DNA from: a bacterium
GTDB lineage: Bacteria; JAJRZV01
Assembly (NCBI GenBank): GCA_024275095.1
Contig: JAJRZV010000057.1
Coordinates: 1-13,594, forward strand
Direction: 5' to 3'
Length of the DNA: 13,594 nucleotides
The notes beneath the pieces are model-generated. The model worked only from the letters and a program-made list of their open reading frames with translations. It was not told the DNA's origin and searched no databases. Positions 1 through 7,488 of the stretch are shown here, in pieces. The translations under genes and the position numbers were made by a program. The stretch's first letter is position 1; each line of letters begins with the position of its first letter.

Positions 1-307
1 AGGGAATCTGATCAAGAAGATTTTTAAATATAAAAAATTCAATTGAAATGCCGCGTGCAACCATAATAAAATAAGAAAAAACAAAAAGTGTTGCAAACGA
101 CTGCATTTGATTTATATGTATAGACAAAACATAAACTCAGAACATAGTGATATAAATTAATAGAGAAAACATAAATGCTCAACAAACAAAAAATAAAGAA
201 AACCGTAAATAATAAAACAAAAAGCCAAAAAAACAGCTGCTGTGGGCAGTCAATAATTTTGTCAAAAACACAAGAATGGCCATTCAAATTACCAGGGGTG
301 CTTCCTG
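1..307. other. AT-rich flank without a convincing gene
   Basis: By hand count 87 of the first 300 bases are G or C (29%), much lower than the chaperone genes to the right. The plus strand can be read as the last 14 codons of a gene (ending KKIFKYKKFN, stop at 44-46), which could be the tail of a gene entering from the left, but this is too short to support. A long minus-strand open frame here encodes a Phe/Leu/Cys-rich string made by A-runs on the plus strand and looks spurious. An imperfect 16-bp direct repeat (14 of 16 matching) starts at 121 and again at 161. No clear promoter for the following gene can be chosen, because chance -10-like motifs are everywhere in such DNA. Confidence 0.6.
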
Positions 308-2779
308 ATGCATCAAACAAGCAATAAATTCACCTTTATATTGTTCATCTTTATTATATCTATTGCATTTGTCACCAGAATAAAATACATGTCACCCATA
401 CCCACTGGACACGATGAAATCTATTATGCAAAAATGGCGGAAAAGCCGGGCAATTTATTCGGCTACCGACTGCAATATGAGATAAATAAAACAAAAATTA
501 GACCAATATATCCTCCTGGATACCCGTTCTTTATCTATTTAGTATCAAAAATATCCCCTGATGAAAAGATTGCTCCCACTCTTACATCTTGTATTTTTGG
601 AGCACTATCCTGTGGTATTGTATTTTTAATTTTAAATTTAATTACAGGCACTTACTTTGCTGTGTTAGGAGCAATTTTAATCAGTTTCAATCCATTTTTT
701 ATAGATCTAAGTTGTAGAGCATACTCGGAAACAACAATGCTACTTTTTATTTCAACCTCTCTCCTTCTAACTTTATTGGCAATTCACAAAAATAAATCTT
801 TGTTTTTTCATGCATCTTTCATCATGGCAATCATCGCAGTCGGTATACACGCAGGAGAAGTGTTATATCTAATGTCGTTATTTATATTCGGGTTATCTCA
901 CAAAAGATTAAGAAAGATTTTAATCATTTATGCCATGCTCTCTGCACCTTTTGTAATATTTTTCTTGTTTACCAAAACAAACTACTGGTGGCAGGGAGGG
1001 CTCAATCTAACAAATTTAACCAAAGCACTTTTACAGTTTATTGAGTCTGTAATAATCATACCCTCAAAAATATTTGCTAAAAACGGGATTCTTATGTATT
1101 CACAACATCCGGGAGTCGTAGCTTACCTGCTATTTCTCTTATCCGGCCAGGCAAAAATTGGAGAAACAGTAACCTTTCCCATGGCCTTTTTCCCATTAGT
1201 TTTACCAACAGCCGTTATCGGAGGATATGTATTCTGTATAAAAAACAAACAGAACTTAAATACATTATCACGTGAATTTATCAAGATTATATTTACAATC
1301 TTTGTAGTATATCTGCTCGCGCGAGCTTCCCAATATTACAGAACAGCAAGATATATTTTTCCGGTGGTTGTATTCGGGTTGGCTGTAATTCCTGTATTGC
1401 TAAAAATGGCCAACGTAAAAAAACTATTATCCACAACTCTCATCTTTTACATAACACTTATACCTTTATACATATCTAAAGATTTTTTGTCTCTTCCAAA
1501 AGTTCACGCCCAACTTCTTATGAAAGAAATGGCAATTCTGGACAGAATTTTGGATAAGGACGTTCTTATAATAACATCTCGACCACAGACAGTTGAAATG
1601 TACCTTAAGCGGAAGTATTTATATATAAACTGGTATAAAATATTTGAGAAGAAATATGATGAAAACTTAAAAAAATTTAAAAAGGTATACTTGTTAGAAG
1701 ATGCGAATGACATAAAAATTAAAGCAAAACAAAGGCTGTATTATCCACTCAAAAGTAAGTATAAAATTTTACCCCTTGAAAAGATAGGACAATTTAAACT
1801 CAGTATATTAGCAATCGACAAATCATCTATTGAATTCTCTATCGGAAAAACAAACGTAAAAGTTCCTTTAGCAATAAAGGTTGCATCAGGAGGCTGGATT
1901 GCCGGCAACAGATGCGAAATTTCTGTCAATGCCAGTGATAATCTTGTCGTGGAGATAAAAAGAGGAATAAACCTGGTCGCAATTGAACCTGACGGTAAAA
2001 TTATATACAGGGGGAATTTCGATACCTGGATTGATAAAAAAGAAGGATTAAAATTTGCAGAATTTGTAAACAGCTTAACCGATGGGATAGTAGTGGCCCT
2101 TTGTGTGGCCGATGAAGCATCAAAAAATTTGACAGAACGTGGACAAGAGGCATTATACAAACTCGGAGGACAGTTACCCTTAATAAAAGCTTTTAGATAC
2201 AGTTACGCTCTTATAGGAATAAAAGGTGCTGAAAAGGGTACTGCACTTGAAGCAATGTCTTTGTTCAAACAGGTTGTTCTGAAAAACTACCTGCCCCAGA
2301 AATTTGCACCGGAGAGAAAAACAATCACGCACGTGGAAGTCGCATCCGGCGGCTGGAAAGCGGGAAATTTCTGTTATATTACCATCAACTACGGCTTCAA
2401 CCTCGCTTTTGGAAAGCGCGGCGTAAACATCGTTGCATTTGATACCAGGAACGGAAAAATATTTGCAAGGCGTGCTTTCGACACGTGGCTGGACAAAAAA
2501 GAAGGTCTTGCACTTGCAGATTTCGTCAACTCTCTCACAAAGGGCACAGGCGTGGCCATATGCGTTCAGGACGAAGCCTCGAGAAACCTTACGGAAAAAG
2601 GTCAGGAAGCACTTTACTCACTCGGGGCAACGTTCCCTCTCATCAAATCGTTCCAGTACAGCTACGCACTCATTGGAATTAAGGGAGCAGGCAAGGGCAC
2701 TGCATTTGAATGCTGGAGCAAATCACAGAAAGTTCTCCTCACAAGTGAAGGTGAATGCAAGCCCTTCAATCTCAAATAG
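308..2779 (+). CDS. PMT/ArnT-like membrane glycosyltransferase with two C-terminal ILEI/FAM3-like domains
   Basis: Predicted 823-residue integral membrane glycosyltransferase of the GT-C fold, which would move a sugar from a polyprenyl-phosphate donor to an acceptor outside the cytoplasm. Residues 8-25 form the first membrane segment. It is followed by the acidic loop motif GHDEIYYAKMA (Asp36, Glu37) and RPIYPPGYP (65-73), both typical of PMT/ArnT/GT39-GT83 enzymes. Many hydrophobic segments follow to about residue 390. A soluble stretch (about 390-515) then leads to two ILEI/FAM3-like domains, near 519-665 and 675-823, about two thirds identical to each other. The ATG at 308 is preceded by AGGGG nine bases upstream. 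The 3' end overlaps the convergent minus-strand gene by 8 bp. GC rises along the gene (about 32%, 40%, 49%), which suggests transfer or mosaic origin. The membrane enzyme family is fairly sure; acceptor and donor are unknown. The ILEI call rests on recalled similarity to human FAM3C, not a search. Confidence 0.85.
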   Translation: MHQTSNKFTFILFIFIISIAFVTRIKYMSPIPTGHDEIYYAKMAEKPGNLFGYRLQYEINKTKIRPIYPPGYPFFIYLVSKISPDEKIAPTLTSCIFGALSCGIVFLILNLITGTYFAVLGAILISFNPFFIDLSCRAYSETTMLLFISTSLLLTLLAIHKNKSLFFHASFIMAIIAVGIHAGEVLYLMSLFIFGLSHKRLRKILIIYAMLSAPFVIFFLFTKTNYWWQGGLNLTNLTKALLQFIESVIIIPSKIFAKNGILMYSQHPGVVAYLLFLLSGQAKIGETVTFPMAFFPLVLPTAVIGGYVFCIKNKQNLNTLSREFIKIIFTIFVVYLLARASQYYRTARYIFPVVVFGLAVIPVLLKMANVKKLLSTTLIFYITLIPLYISKDFLSLPKVHAQLLMKEMAILDRILDKDVLIITSRPQTVEMYLKRKYLYINWYKIFEKKYDENLKKFKKVYLLEDANDIKIKAKQRLYYPLKSKYKILPLEKIGQFKLSILAIDKSSIEFSIGKTNVKVPLAIKVASGGWIAGNRCEISVNASDNLVVEIKRGINLVAIEPDGKIIYRGNFDTWIDKKEGLKFAEFVNSLTDGIVVALCVADEASKNLTERGQEALYKLGGQLPLIKAFRYSYALIGIKGAEKGTALEAMSLFKQVVLKNYLPQKFAPERKTITHVEVASGGWKAGNFCYITINYGFNLAFGKRGVNIVAFDTRNGKIFARRAFDTWLDKKEGLALADFVNSLTKGTGVAICVQDEASRNLTEKGQEALYSLGATFPLIKSFQYSYALIGIKGAGKGTAFECWSKSQKVLLTSEGECKPFNLK
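1862..2302 (+). repeat. First ILEI/FAM3-like domain (tandem copy 1)
   Basis: Residues about 519-665 of the membrane glycosyltransferase. The order of motifs follows FAM3/ILEI proteins: VASGGW at 525-530, a cysteine after GNR (Cys536), KRGINLVAI, FDTW, a helix with EFVNSLTDG, CVADEASKNL, then FRYSYALIGIKG. In human FAM3C the corresponding landmarks are ASGAAN, PKIC, GRGINVAL, FDMW, FLKAIQDGT, YDDGATKL and FRDNWVFCGGKG. The tail VVLKNYLPQK aligns with the FAM3C tail that holds the last conserved cysteine, but here the position appears to be Tyr. GC over 1861-2280 is about 40% by hand count. Confidence 0.75.
2330..2776 (+). repeat. Second ILEI/FAM3-like domain (tandem copy 2)
   Basis: Residues about 675-823, the C-terminal domain. 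It repeats copy 1 from VASGGW (678-683) through FDTW, DKKEGL, FVNSLT, DEASRNLTE and YSYALIGIKGA to GTAFE (ending at 801). By eye 84 of about 128 aligned residues are identical. Unlike copy 1 it keeps a C-terminal cysteine (Cys817, in EGEC), matching the EGC near the end of FAM3C, besides Cys689 and Cys752. At DNA level the copies differ mostly at third positions, and this copy is GC-richer (about 49% over 2341-2760), so it is not a fresh duplication. Confidence 0.75.
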
Positions 2780-5504
2780 CAGCCGTTCCGTTTCGATACT
2801 TATGGGGTTTCCATTCAATATTCCACTTTCTTTCATAGCGCCTTTTGTTCTCTTCAAAAATCCGGTTGTATTCTTCATCACTTAGCTTTTTAAAAGTCGC
2901 TCCACCAAAGTGATGAATAAATACATCTTCTGCGCATATCAGCCTGTATCCAGCTTTCTTGACACGGAGGCAAAAATCATCATCCTCGAAAAAACCAATG
3001 GAAAACTGTTCATCGAGACATCCCACCTTTTCGATAACGTGTTTTTTTACAGCAACGCAGTAAAAGGCAAGAACGTCAATGGGAAACCACTTGCCCTTAT
3101 TTGCTTTTGTGTACCTCTCGGCGAACTCTTCCATCTCACTAAGGTTTGTATAATCCACGTCAATTTTTGCCTCATTGCCAATGCTGTTTGTTACAGGGCC
3201 GACCATACCGAGATCCTCAACGAGATCAAAATACCTGATCAGGCCTCCCAGCCATCCTTTCGTTACTACGGTATCATTATTGAGAAACACGATGAAGTCA
3301 CCTGTAGATGCCTTGATACCCTGATTATTTGCGCCGGCGAATCCTTTATTCTCATTGTTGAATATAACTTTTACATTGCCGTTTTGCTTTGAAAGTTCAT
3401 ACAGATATTCACGCGTCCCGTCGTGCGATGCGTTATCAACAACGATAACTTCAAAATTCGGATATGCGGTCTTCTCGAAAAGACTGTTAAGGCAAAGTCT
3501 CGTGTAATTCAAGTTATTATGAGTGACCACAATGATACTTACCTTGGGGTACATCTGCCTTATCTTTTCCTGCAGGCGACTGAAGCGCTTGTCCCAGTTG
3601 TTTCTGTAAGCAGTGGTGATTCTTTCTTTCCTGAAACGACGAGGATCTTCAGAAATCGCTTTCTTAACATTCTGTAGAAACTCCTCGTGGGTTTCAGAAA
3701 CGTACGCAATACGCCTTAACGTCCTGAGCTCCGGTAAAGCTGTTGTTACAACAGGTTTCCCAGCACTTATGTACTCATAAAACTTGACGGGATCGGTAGA
3801 CTCTATCAGCTTGGTTACCTTAAACGGGATTAAACACACATCAAACCAGTAGAGGTATCGAGGCAACTCTGAATAAGGCTTTTCACCGAGCAAATAAACA
3901 TTTTTATACTTTTTGAGTTTTTCAACGTCTGAGCCAAAAGTGTGTCCTATCAATACAAAGCTGGCCTCTTTATGAGCCTTAACAACTTTCTCAAGCAACT
4001 CGGTATCAAACCATTCCGATATTGCTCCGTAGTATCCGATTATGGGTTTTTTGAAATCTTTGAGTAGCTCATTCTGGGGAGGATTAAAAAAATGATGAAA
4101 ATCTACTCCATTCTTAACAAGATATGTTTCTTTTTTATGCTCTTTGATTTTGTAGAAAAGTTTCAATGATGAAGTAATACACATATCTGACAACTCAACG
4201 AGTAATTTTTCATCATTCAGTACAATCTCACCAAGATCCTTGAATTCGCTGAACTCATCGAGACAATCGTAAACCAACTTAAAATGTCTTCTACTCCTTT
4301 TGAGTTCTTCAGCGAATCTTCTCCAGTTTGGAAGTTGTACAATCATTACACATTCTTTCACGCCACAATCATCCACAAGCTTTTCAAGTGCAAGCATCAT
4401 CTTTGAGTGGTCATTTTCATCAGCTGTAGAGTAAATATCGTATATAAGAAAATCCTTCTCAGCAGGTAGTTTCACCTCGTAAACATTATCAGCAACTTTC
4501 CTTATCTGATAATCTCCCCCTTTCTTCACATTTACGCTGAGGTAGAAAACCCTGTGGCCATTACGTGCAAACCGGGTGGCAAAATGCTGTGGCCTCTGAA
4601 ACCTGAAATCCCAATCTATAATCGAAAAAAAGATTACATCATACTTGTACACTCCCCTCCGGCTTTCACGTACGGCTTCCTCTACCGGAATAGGATTCTG
4701 ATGTACACTTCTTTTTCTTGGATACTTTACGCGCGACCATATGCGTGTAACAACACCTCTCAGCCCCTCATCGCGCCAGACCCTGAAAACCCGATGCACA
4801 AAAGAAAGTACGACACTTCGGGTGGCCATCCTCCAGTACCACGTCGCCACTTTCCACCAGGTAGTTGCTTTGATATTTTCAAGCTCTTGAAGTAAAGATT
4901 TTGTGTACGACTCCAGGCTCTCCACTCTCTGAGCAAGCACGTTGTTTCTTTCCTGGAGCAAATTAATCTGTCCCTGAAGCCGGGCGTTTTTACTGATTTC
5001 CTGATGCAATAGTTTTTCCTCATGATCCAGCTTTCGTTCAACCCTCTCTCTGACTTCTCTCTCTTGTTCAATCTGCTTTTCGAGAACCTGTTTCTCAGCC
5101 AGGAGTCTTTCGCGCTCTGACCTGAGTGCCCTGGTCTCTTTGTCCAGTGAATCCGTAAGATAGGACAAACGAACTTTCTCAAGGCTCACCCATTGCATGT
5201 GTGCATATACACATAAAAACTGCTTCCCTCCCCAAAAACGCTCCTCCATTTTTGCACAATCGATTTCCCTGAAAAAGACGAGATAAAAATCACCCACCCT
5301 TAGAGGAAAGTTGTTGTAGTCAAAAGTGAAAAAGTGCTCAAAATCCCGTTCTGTCTCCCTGAAAGGAGCAAGAATCACCACGTACTTCCTGGCTTTGTCC
5401 ATCATTTTTTTCAGAAACTGAAAGGGGCGGTCAAAATGCTCTATCGTGTTCGAGCAATAGATGACATCAAACTTTTCTTCAATAGCGTCTATGTCGCTTG
5501 TCAC
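2772..5504 (-). CDS. Methyltransferase C-terminal part, coiled coil, GT4-like and GT2 glycosyltransferase (3' fragment of an interrupted gene)
   Basis: The open frame has 910 codons from a GTG at 5504, but it continues in frame, past one TAA, from the frame that starts at 5804, so this is the larger part of a gene of about 1010 codons. Residues 1-105 are the second half of a SAM-dependent methyltransferase (FDVIYCSNTIEHF). Residues about 116-212 are a charged coiled coil rich in Glu/Arg/Lys, followed by a Trp-rich basic linker. About 288-650 is a GT4-like glycosyltransferase (DWDFRFQRPQHFA near the start, FYEYISAGKPVVTT in the nucleotide-sugar-binding half). About 653-905 is a GT2 glycosyltransferase (VSIIVVTHNN, VIVVDNASHDGT, LNNDT, FFEDDDFCLRVKKAGY). 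It should act in the cytoplasm on surface polysaccharide. The GTG has only a weak AAGAG upstream, so the GT part would need re-initiation. The 3' end overlaps the convergent membrane glycosyltransferase gene. Confidence 0.85.
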   Translation of the reverse strand: MTSDIDAIEEKFDVIYCSNTIEHFDRPFQFLKKMMDKARKYVVILAPFRETERDFEHFFTFDYNNFPLRVGDFYLVFFREIDCAKMEERFWGGKQFLCVYAHMQWVSLEKVRLSYLTDSLDKETRALRSERERLLAEKQVLEKQIEQEREVRERVERKLDHEEKLLHQEISKNARLQGQINLLQERNNVLAQRVESLESYTKSLLQELENIKATTWWKVATWYWRMATRSVVLSFVHRVFRVWRDEGLRGVVTRIWSRVKYPRKRSVHQNPIPVEEAVRESRRGVYKYDVIFFSIIDWDFRFQRPQHFATRFARNGHRVFYLSVNVKKGGDYQIRKVADNVYEVKLPAEKDFLIYDIYSTADENDHSKMMLALEKLVDDCGVKECVMIVQLPNWRRFAEELKRSRRHFKLVYDCLDEFSEFKDLGEIVLNDEKLLVELSDMCITSSLKLFYKIKEHKKETYLVKNGVDFHHFFNPPQNELLKDFKKPIIGYYGAISEWFDTELLEKVVKAHKEASFVLIGHTFGSDVEKLKKYKNVYLLGEKPYSELPRYLYWFDVCLIPFKVTKLIESTDPVKFYEYISAGKPVVTTALPELRTLRRIAYVSETHEEFLQNVKKAISEDPRRFRKERITTAYRNNWDKRFSRLQEKIRQMYPKVSIIVVTHNNLNYTRLCLNSLFEKTAYPNFEVIVVDNASHDGTREYLYELSKQNGNVKVIFNNENKGFAGANNQGIKASTGDFIVFLNNDTVVTKGWLGGLIRYFDLVEDLGMVGPVTNSIGNEAKIDVDYTNLSEMEEFAERYTKANKGKWFPIDVLAFYCVAVKKHVIEKVGCLDEQFSIGFFEDDDFCLRVKKAGYRLICAEDVFIHHFGGATFKKLSDEEYNRIFEENKRRYERKWNIEWKPHKYRNGTAAI

Positions 5505-5552
5505 AAATTCTCTTAAGGGATAATATTGTCTTGCTTTTTTGATCGCCTCTTC

Positions 5553-5804
5553 TTAAATATCCACCCCGACAATTTTTGAATCTGGAAAACGACGGGCCAG
5601 CATTTCAACAGCATCTCCTTCTGCGCAGCCCAGGTCCATAATACTGAGATGGTTTCCTTCAATATCGCTGATAATCCATTCAGGAAGATGTTCAAGCGTA
5701 ATTTGGCAGAAAAATCTGGTCTGCTCCCTGCCCCCTTTTTTCTCCCAATCGGTACGGAATCGAATATCCCAGTAAAGACGACTGTTGATGTCCACATCCT
5801 TCAT
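5553..5804 (-). CDS. N-terminal fragment of the same methyltransferase-glycosyltransferase, cut by an in-frame TAA
   Basis: This is an 83-residue fragment with the start of a class I SAM-dependent methyltransferase. It has the family-typical N terminus (NSRLYWDIRFRTDWEKKGG) and the SAM-binding motif I, DLGCAEGD at 57-64, ending IVGVDI. The next codon is TAA (5553-5555), after which the same frame reads EEAIKKARQYYPLREFV and joins the downstream 910-codon frame without any shift. Family members usually read GVDIS here, so a TCA to TAA change is the simplest origin. Alone it lacks half the methyltransferase fold and should be inactive. The ATG at 5804 has no strong ribosome-binding site and sits just 12 bases past a good -10 box. 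Confidence 0.7.
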   Translation of the reverse strand: MKDVDINSRLYWDIRFRTDWEKKGGREQTRFFCQITLEHLPEWIISDIEGNHLSIMDLGCAEGDAVEMLARRFPDSKIVGVDI

Positions 5805-5815
5805 GATGCCAGGTC

Positions 5816-5879: not shown

Positions 5880-5897
5880 AAAAAAGCTGATTTCAGC
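5880..5897 (-). terminator. Short candidate intrinsic terminator after the MEMO-AMMECR1 gene
   Basis: On the minus strand the self-complementary GCTGAAATCAGC (4-5 bp stem) is followed directly by six T. The stem contains the TGA stop of the upstream gene. It is short for a strong terminator, but the position between two transcription units fits. Confidence 0.4.
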
Positions 5898-7488
5898 GTT
5901 TTGCCTGAAATTCCTTTTCCGAAAACACCGTGGCAGTGAACCGGTAAAGTTTTACACCTGGTTTTTTCCACGTATCCGGCGGAAGTCCTGCTTTTCGGCA
6001 TATTTGACGCAGGTATTCTTGTAAATTCCAGCCCCATTCAACAGGCACCTGGGGCAGAAGCACGCCCCGGCGGCGGCCGTACTCAATAATCAAACCGTCA
6101 CGACCAATCTTTATCTCCTTGAGGGGATTCTTCACAGGTACTGGAGGAGAGAGCACAGAAATCTCTATTTCAATATCCTCTAACTCATCCACACGCACTG
6201 GGTAAAACCGCGGGTCCTTCGAACAGGAATTAACCGTCATGTGTTGAACAGCGAGGTAAAGGGGTTCTACCGCAGAGAGGCCTCCAATACATCCCCTGAG
6301 AATCCCTCTCTTTTTCAACGTCACAAAAACGGCTCCCTTCTTCTTCAAAATTTCTCTTTGAGGTTTTACCTCCGGAATGCGTCTCTCTTTCACATAAGTT
6401 TCCAGGGTAAGGCGGGCAATTCGGAGTAACTTCTTTTTATCTTCACGCGTAAGATCATCACCTTTCACCCATTCACCCTTCTCCTTTTGAGTAACGGTTT
6501 CCTTCCTCTCTACACGGGTCCAATCATAAGAAAGCTTTATCCGCCCTGATTTAAGAAATGCCACCGAACCGTAACCTACCACACGCTCCATACCCCCTGC
6601 TGTGTCACCAGAGTTCTTGTATTCCAGCACCACCGGTTTCAGATCCAATTTCGATGCTATTATAAGAGCGGTAAGTACAGGGGACACCCCGCACATTTCG
6701 TAAGTGCGTTCGCGAACCTTTTTGTAGATACTTCTCCAGTCTTCTGTTGTAAGCGCCTTGAGAAGCGCAATATCCATCTCTCTGGCCACTTCATACGGGT
6801 GATAGTGGGAGAGGTCAGAAGATGCAACGAATACATAACGACCGTTACCTTTCTTCAATATTTGCGCAAGAACCTCCGCCGCCCCTTCAATTACATCTGT
6901 ACGAAATCCTCCAAACACGAGAGGCAGCACCTTCGCTTCTGGAAGAAACTTTTGAACAAAAGGGATCTCAACTTCCGCGGCATGTTCCCTCTCGAAAGCT
7001 CTTATTTCCTGCATAAAAGGTAAATGTTTCAGCAACTGCCGGCCCAGCTTTTTATCTATGGGCACTTCCCCGAGAGGGGTTCTGTACGCGTCTTTCATCA
7101 GCACAGATACGCCGTTGAAAGGGTATCTGTGAGACGGTGCCATGATGATCACAGTGAGGGGATTGGTCTGCTTCAACACAAAAAATGAATGGGCCGCCAC
7201 CTGGCCTGAGTAGATATAACCTGCATGGGGAGCAATCACTCCCAGCACCTCACCTTCTACCGAAACACCTGTAACGTTTTTCATAAATTCATTCAGCATT
7301 TCATCGAGTTCCGCAGGACCAGCAGGGTAAAAAGCCCCGGCGACCACAGGATTGAAAACTTCTTTTGGTTTGGATTTACTGCACTGGGTAAAGAACAGAG
7401 CACTTACGAAAGCGACACAAAATCCTGCGACCCGAACCAGAACCCCTCTTTTTTTAATCAAGAATTTCAAGGGTGTATTTCTTGTCAT
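5893..7488 (-). CDS. MEMO-AMMECR1 fusion protein (AmmeMemoRadiSam system proteins B and A) with N-terminal export-like segment
   Basis: This 531-residue protein joins the two non-radical-SAM partners of the AmmeMemoRadiSam system, whose reaction is not established. The MEMO domain (about 45-315) is related to metal-dependent class III extradiol dioxygenases. It keeps the expected ligands and motifs: PHAGY (His88), PSHRYPF (His120), EHAAEVEIPF (His169), SSDLSHYHPY (225-232) and MCGVSP (Cys266). The AMMECR1 domain (about 345-525) has the signature LRGCIGG (397-403), DPRFYPV and IEISVLSP. Residues 1-19 are basic, followed by a hydrophobic stretch ending FFTQC (Cys36) and then a Lys-rich segment. 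This looks like a signal anchor or an atypical lipobox, with Gln before Cys being unusual. The start overlaps khpA by 35 bases and has no clear ribosome-binding site, so expression may depend on khpA translation. The radical SAM partner is not in this window. Confidence 0.9.
   Translation of the reverse strand: MTRNTPLKFLIKKRGVLVRVAGFCVAFVSALFFTQCSKSKPKEVFNPVVAGAFYPAGPAELDEMLNEFMKNVTGVSVEGEVLGVIAPHAGYIYSGQVAAHSFFVLKQTNPLTVIIMAPSHRYPFNGVSVLMKDAYRTPLGEVPIDKKLGRQLLKHLPFMQEIRAFEREHAAEVEIPFVQKFLPEAKVLPLVFGGFRTDVIEGAAEVLAQILKKGNGRYVFVASSDLSHYHPYEVAREMDIALLKALTTEDWRSIYKKVRERTYEMCGVSPVLTALIIASKLDLKPVVLEYKNSGDTAGGMERVVGYGSVAFLKSGRIKLSYDWTRVERKETVTQKEKGEWVKGDDLTREDKKKLLRIARLTLETYVKERRIPEVKPQREILKKKGAVFVTLKKRGILRGCIGGLSAVEPLYLAVQHMTVNSCSKDPRFYPVRVDELEDIEIEISVLSPPVPVKNPLKEIKIGRDGLIIEYGRRRGVLLPQVPVEWGWNLQEYLRQICRKAGLPPDTWKKPGVKLYRFTATVFSEKEFQAKR

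Follow-up and report, generated by a model that had tools for sequence, protein, structure and literature searches.

The analyzed window, meaning the whole stretch of DNA under study, is a complete contig of 13,594 bases from a 2.45-Mb, 97% complete genome, the only representative of its phylum in the genome set compared. Close to its start, an intact open reading frame encodes a protein of 823 residues. The following features were assigned:

308 to 2779, forward strand: whole gene, 823 aa; GT-C (PMT_2) glycosyltransferase, post-membrane domain and two ILEI domains (ORF and Pfam)
308 to 1495, forward strand: GT-C part embedded in the membrane, with about 12 hydrophobic segments over residues 1-396 (hydropathy scan, PF13231)
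413 to 418, forward strand: putative catalytic residues Asp36-Glu37, predicted to lie in extracytoplasmic loop 1 (position; role by homology)
512 to 973, forward strand: PMT_2 profile match, residues 69-222 (PF13231)
1496 to 1822, forward strand: small alpha/beta domain after the last transmembrane (TM) helix, residues 397-505 (pLDDT about 45-74)
1835 to 2287, forward strand: ILEI domain 1, spanning approximately residues 510-660, with its Pfam core at 1961-2230 (pLDDT, ligand positions)
2321 to 2752, forward strand: ILEI domain 2, spanning approximately residues 672-815, with its Pfam core at 2417-2689 (pLDDT, Z 19.3 to the POMGnT1 stem)
2772 to 5504, reverse strand: convergent neighbour, a methyltransferase remnant fused to a GT1-type and a GT2 glycosyltransferase (Glycos_transf_2, 3.5e-33; Glyco_trans_1_4, 1.5e-7)

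The membrane-embedded part matches the PMT_2 profile (PF13231) in Pfam with an E-value of 1.8e-9 and 38.4 bits, which is above the cut-off of 26.1. In a search of its genome the gene scored 43.4 bits and was the only PMT_2 gene at E ≤ 0.001. The last hydrophobic segment identified in the hydropathy scan reaches residue 396, and an acidic motif (H35-D36-E37) is located about ten residues past the first (TM1). Since this is the same place as that of the acidic motif described as essential in ArnT (D55/E56) and Pmt1 (D77/E78) (PMC7801869), Asp36-Glu37 is the candidate catalytic pair by homology. PMT (PF02366) and MIR domains gave no Pfam match in the protein at E-values up to 1. The small domain following the membrane part (residues 399-502) has two weak fold matches, neither high enough to build on: AglB, in its C-terminal globular domain (3vu0, Z 5.3), and ArnT, in its periplasmic domain (5ezm, Z 4.7). 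The protein is similar to the ArnT/PMT_2 family in profile, Asp-Glu motif and, weakly, this domain, whereas the ArnT structure 5ezm ends after the periplasmic domain and has no ILEI domains.

The ILEI profile (PF15711) was matched in two stretches with an E-value of 2.4e-40 and 137.4 bits (cut-off 27), both copies covering profile positions 1-90. These E-values exclude a chance match, and the family was absent from 14 control genomes. The initial annotation, which had described a PMT-like membrane glycosyltransferase joined to two ILEI domains, is confirmed by both profiles and by the presence of Asp36-Glu37. The landmarks and coordinates it had named were also correct, with RGIN (552), FDTW (571), DEAS (602) and FRYSY (629) in domain 1 and RGVN (704), FDTW (724), DEAS (755) and FQYSY (782) in domain 2.

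For the structure prediction with AlphaFold2, the alignment rows were 26 related ILEI domains. Domain 1 reached a pLDDT of 87-98 over most of its length; domain 2, which was covered by no row, was mostly between 72 and 95, and the TM half, of which the alignment held no close relatives, was low. The best match among solved folds was the POMGnT1 stem (5ggf) with Z 19.3 and 1.8 Å over 137 residues (28% identity, rows aligning to domain 2), followed by FAM3C (Z 17.7, 5lc2) and FAM3B/FAM3A (about 17). In the sequence comparison with solved structures, the POMGnT1 stem also ranked first (8.8e-7), followed by FAM3A (1.5e-6), FAM3C (3.9e-6), the TMEM2 ectodomain (8c6i; 2.6e-5) and FAM3B (1.7e-4). For the TM parts of the window protein and of the TMTC-like protein described below, no solved-structure relative was found by sequence. 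According to the model, both ILEI domains have the FAM3/POMGnT1-stem beta-beta-alpha fold. The likeness to FAM3C proposed earlier holds for fold and landmarks, but the nearest relative is the POMGnT1 stem, slightly ahead of FAM3B/C.

The FAM3A/B/C/D proteins (ILEI, PANDER) share the fold (Z about 17-18) and the landmarks, but they are secreted single-domain animal factors without an attached enzyme. The POMGnT1 stem (5ggf, 5ggj, 5ggl), the best match in sequence and fold, is itself attached to a glycosyltransferase. In POMGnT1, however, one N-terminal stem domain sits on a luminal catalytic domain with a single TM anchor that uses UDP-GlcNAc, whereas the window protein is a multi-pass GT-C protein that carries two copies at its C-terminus.

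In POMGnT1, GlcNAc is bound by Arg129, Asp179 and Arg207, and sugar binding was also described for FAM3C, FAM3A and the worm protein Fam3L2 (PMC9802357). Domain 1 of the window protein keeps this full triad (R552, D602, R630), and D572 is kept as well. In domain 2, R704 and D755 are kept and the third ligand position is Q783. In TMEM2/HYBID, hyaluronan degradation was abolished by changing R265 or R187, or D286 (PMC10276149); counted along the motif, these residues appear to be the equivalents of POMGnT1 Arg129 and of the FDT-motif Asp. Arg and Asp are also kept in CBM_1 of the Streptococcus phage TP-778L Tal, a domain with the POMGnT1-stem fold for which binding of host polysaccharide was proposed (PMC9437275), but which belongs to a phage adhesin without a transferase part.

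Conservation was measured in 29 ILEI domains, those of the window protein and of its nearer relatives linked to GT-C, and is 90% for each of R129 and D179 and 72% for R207. A full triad is present in 19 of the 25 domains from a Chloroflexota/Nitrospinae family and in 27 of the 28 from C25-type proteins; the TMTC-like pair has RDH. In the YfhO-type copies the ligand residues are mostly lost (Arg129 is missing, Asp179 often), so binding cannot serve in all members. Loss of D179 accompanies loss of R129 (p 0.0004) and of R207 (p 0.0007) across 34 domains, values that are uncorrected for shared ancestry and stem from non-independent related rows.

The distribution of ILEI was surveyed in 386 bacterial genomes spread across the domain, with hosts counted by GTDB family. 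Profile matches were found in 25 genomes spread over the bacteria, and of the 18 GTDB families in which ILEI occurs, 7 to 9 have it on a GT-C-type protein (7 clear multi-pass, 2 likely). The clear cases are the window protein (PMT_2), YfhO proteins (PF09586) in G285, G350, G214 and G229/G365, the last two with two ILEI domains, a TMTC-like protein (G183/G447) and a protein from Nitrospinae (G172). The label TMTC-like was given from motifs judged by eye (ADD after TM1, YYRP, SLLFVTHPVHTEAV, KE...T) against PMC7801869, with no profile match behind it. The first likely case (G303) is a PMT_2 gene with a C-terminal ILEI-like domain (L092, 4157-6703, reverse strand), in which the PMT_2 half (1.9e-13) and the ILEI half are parted by one in-frame stop codon near 5813. 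The second (G033) is a weak ILEI match on a multi-pass protein.

A further scan of one genome per species used an alignment of the four closer ILEI domains as query, since seven diverse domains proved too loose. Of the 26 loci it yielded, 24 belong to Chloroflexota records, and nearly all encode multi-pass proteins of about 870-1,010 aa with one terminal ILEI domain. In the phylum of G285, taken as Chloroflexota from a protein shared with L119, ILEI was found in 9 of 301 sampled genomes, and the hosts examined were GT-C-type proteins or fragments of them. The full-length window protein gave no match when searched against genome contigs. Viral contigs and plasmids held no ILEI loci, and the matches among phages were weak and confined to four Vibrio phages (30% identity, E 2e-3). 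The pairing of ILEI with GT-C proteins recurs on at least four kinds, namely PMT_2, YfhO, TMTC-like proteins and the Chloroflexota/Nitrospinae family of about 900 aa. The view of the fusion as an isolated oddity was thereby ruled out, and the earlier description of it as specific to one protein was too narrow.

In the last of these families, ILEI was the only Pfam domain found consistently among 21 members. Over the first 430-580 residues, the model of one member (L097, 3904-6519; pLDDT 84.7, pTM 0.81) matches Stt3 (Z 27.7), AglB (25.8), PglB (21.4), AftA (21.2), ArnT (20.2) and Pmt (19.3); its match to AftD (24.9) extends to residue 684. Judged from this model, the family clearly belongs to the GT-C fold. 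Residues 710-850 match the POMGnT1 stem (Z 19.2, 1.7 Å), which also ranks first when the family profile is compared to solved chains (1.7e-15). A beta-rich, jelly-roll-like stretch before the ILEI domain (residues about 612-686) weakly matches beta-glucuronidases and the sugar-binding domains of beta-galactosidases, which suggests a second carbohydrate-binding module.

ILEI was also identified on C25 peptidases (PorU-like, T9SS), CotH-type, RHS-like and small secreted proteins. The C25 hosts are frequent in one phylum, that of G044, in which 54 of 82 genomes have ILEI. In C25 proteins of about 1900 aa (PorU/PorU2-like; L011, 5653-11352), two ILEI domains flank the peptidase domain. One genome (G427; L077, L078) has four near-identical ILEI domains within RHS-repeat-like proteins with variable C-termini.

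In the ILEI tree, which is based on 96 columns and limited by the position of its root, the two domains of the window protein are sisters (support 100/99) and therefore arose by local duplication. GT-C-linked ILEI domains group on one side of a branch (100/98), also when the long YfhO rows are left out. The tree thus points to a single ILEI lineage that spread through several GT-C families, and not to many separate recruitments. Placing the POMGnT1 stem with the GT-C-linked domains was neither shown nor rejected by the AU test (p 0.71). Separate recruitment of ILEI in POMGnT1 and in GT-C proteins, hinted at by the first tree, was dropped on this result.

The convergent neighbour (2772-5504) lies outside the operon of the transferase gene. 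No donor-synthase gene adjoins the transferase gene on the contig, which begins 307 bases upstream of it. The GC content is 32-34% over most of the transferase gene region (window positions 1-2000) compared to mostly 44-50% elsewhere on the contig, and a horizontal origin of this region is possible. Near the Nitrospinae copy, GT2 and YdjC genes are located, and two Chloroflexota copies adjoin TMEM260-like and PMT_2 genes. These neighbours agree with work on glycans without naming an acceptor. At one locus (L122, 6532-8499), a TMEM260-like gene (PF11028, 3.5e-34) directly follows the GT-C-ILEI gene, with a TPR protein adjacent. In humans, TMEM260 acts as a protein O-mannosyltransferase.

GT-C enzymes use polyprenyl-linked donors at the outer face of the membrane. 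The window protein is proposed to work in this way, as an extracytoplasmic transferase that depends on a polyprenyl-phosphate sugar and uses its ILEI pair to bind the acceptor glycan, a reading to which we assign a probability of slightly more than one half (about 0.57). The GT-C part would take the sugar from a polyprenyl-phosphate donor at the outer face of the cytoplasmic membrane, with Asp36/Glu37 in the predicted first outer loop, and would hand it to an acceptor, either a glycan of the cell surface or a protein that is already glycosylated. The two C-terminal ILEI domains, presumably outside the membrane, would act as a non-catalytic carbohydrate-binding pair. They may grip the acceptor sugar by the pocket that holds GlcNAc in POMGnT1 and thus keep or orient it near the active site. 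Domain 1, with all three ligand residues, would be the likelier binder, and Gln at the third position could give domain 2 weaker binding or a different sugar.

The pair is read as a sugar-binding type of module because of its fold, its place after the last TM helix, the kept POMGnT1 ligands and the precedents among GT-C enzymes. EmbC, AftD and the GT136 enzyme ORF12 are multi-pass GT-C enzymes with outward C-terminal modules that bind the acceptor glycan (PMC11127046), and the window protein may, by analogy, do the same. The folds of these modules are different, with an Ig-like one in ORF12, and in the text consulted none is called ILEI-type. Counting against the proposed reading are the low confidence of the modelled TM half, the ILEI domains on transferase-free proteins, the loss of ligand residues in YfhO-type copies, the lack of an adjoining donor-synthase gene and the ORF12 module, which binds the acceptor LPS but was dispensable under the conditions tested (PMC11127046). 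The extracytoplasmic sugar-binding module suggested by the initial annotation is thus probably right as to its kind, on the evidence of sequence, model and analogy, while its treatment as a feature of one protein is not.

The ILEI pair might instead be a structural or protein-protein module for dimerisation or for docking of a partner or peptide acceptor, with no sugar binding. This fits the occurrence of ILEI on unrelated secreted proteins, the YfhO-type copies without Arg129 and often without Asp179, and the crystallisation of FAM3C in a dimer form (5lc4). It is nevertheless unlikely, as the ligand positions are kept in domain 1, in the Chloroflexota/Nitrospinae family (19/25) and in the C25-type domains (27/28), and the ligand residues are lost together, as a pocket would predict.

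Less probable again is binding of envelope or cell-wall sugars that would anchor or localise the enzyme rather than present its acceptor. A multi-pass membrane protein does not need a further anchor, and the modules of the precedent GT-C enzymes bind the acceptor (PMC11127046). The same conserved pocket would serve for anchoring too, and ILEI occurs on surface-exported T9SS-type proteins, on which acceptor presentation makes no sense.

A strict bacterial protein O-mannosyltransferase of the PMT/POMT type, with an ILEI pair reading O-mannosyl glycans like POMGnT1, is improbable: the PMT_2 match, the Asp-Glu motif, the POMGnT1-like pocket and the TMEM260-like neighbour of one Chloroflexota relative would suit it, but the match is to the broad PMT_2 only and not to PF02366, a MIR domain is lacking, ILEI is found on YfhO-type proteins too and no acceptor protein or pathway gene is known. 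PMT_2 also spans transferases acting on lipids and polysaccharides. The parallel with animal O-mannosylation drawn earlier is kept as a suggestion.

ILEI could be a portable acceptor-reading head that has moved between GT-C proteins of the PMT_2, YfhO, TMTC-like and Chloroflexota families, and its pairing with transferases could share ancestry with, or prefigure, the elongation of O-mannose by POMGnT1 in animals. This wider idea is rather doubtful. The suggestion of an undescribed type of transferase holds for the kind of module: EmbC, AftD and GT136 already provide examples of a glycan-binding module appended to a GT-C enzyme, whereas an ILEI module on GT-C enzymes appears to be undescribed. 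A literature search for "ILEI domain" or PF15711, with subscription papers mostly outside its scope, found no papers, a result that speaks weakly for novelty.

FAM3 proteins and the POMGnT1 stem have been studied as animal proteins, and here the domain is repeatedly tied to bacterial membrane sugar transferases. This pairing would give the domain a testable older role, the recognition of acceptor glycans, and bacterial ILEI domains could be useful for learning what FAM3-type pockets bind. In Chloroflexota, Nitrospinae and candidate phyla, GT-C enzymes that are still uncharacterised can be flagged by their ILEI domain; the family of about 900 aa without a Pfam name is among them.

Two further observations were made in the window. 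The neighbouring fusion gene (5513-5804 and 2772-5504, reverse strand) has an in-frame TAA near 5551-5553 with the frame open on both sides, which may reflect a nonsense mutation, an error in sequencing or a true internal start. At 5893-7488 (reverse strand), Memo (3e-60) and AMMECR1 (2.7e-55) domains are combined in one protein with a lipoprotein-like signal (FTQC), which is possibly exported.
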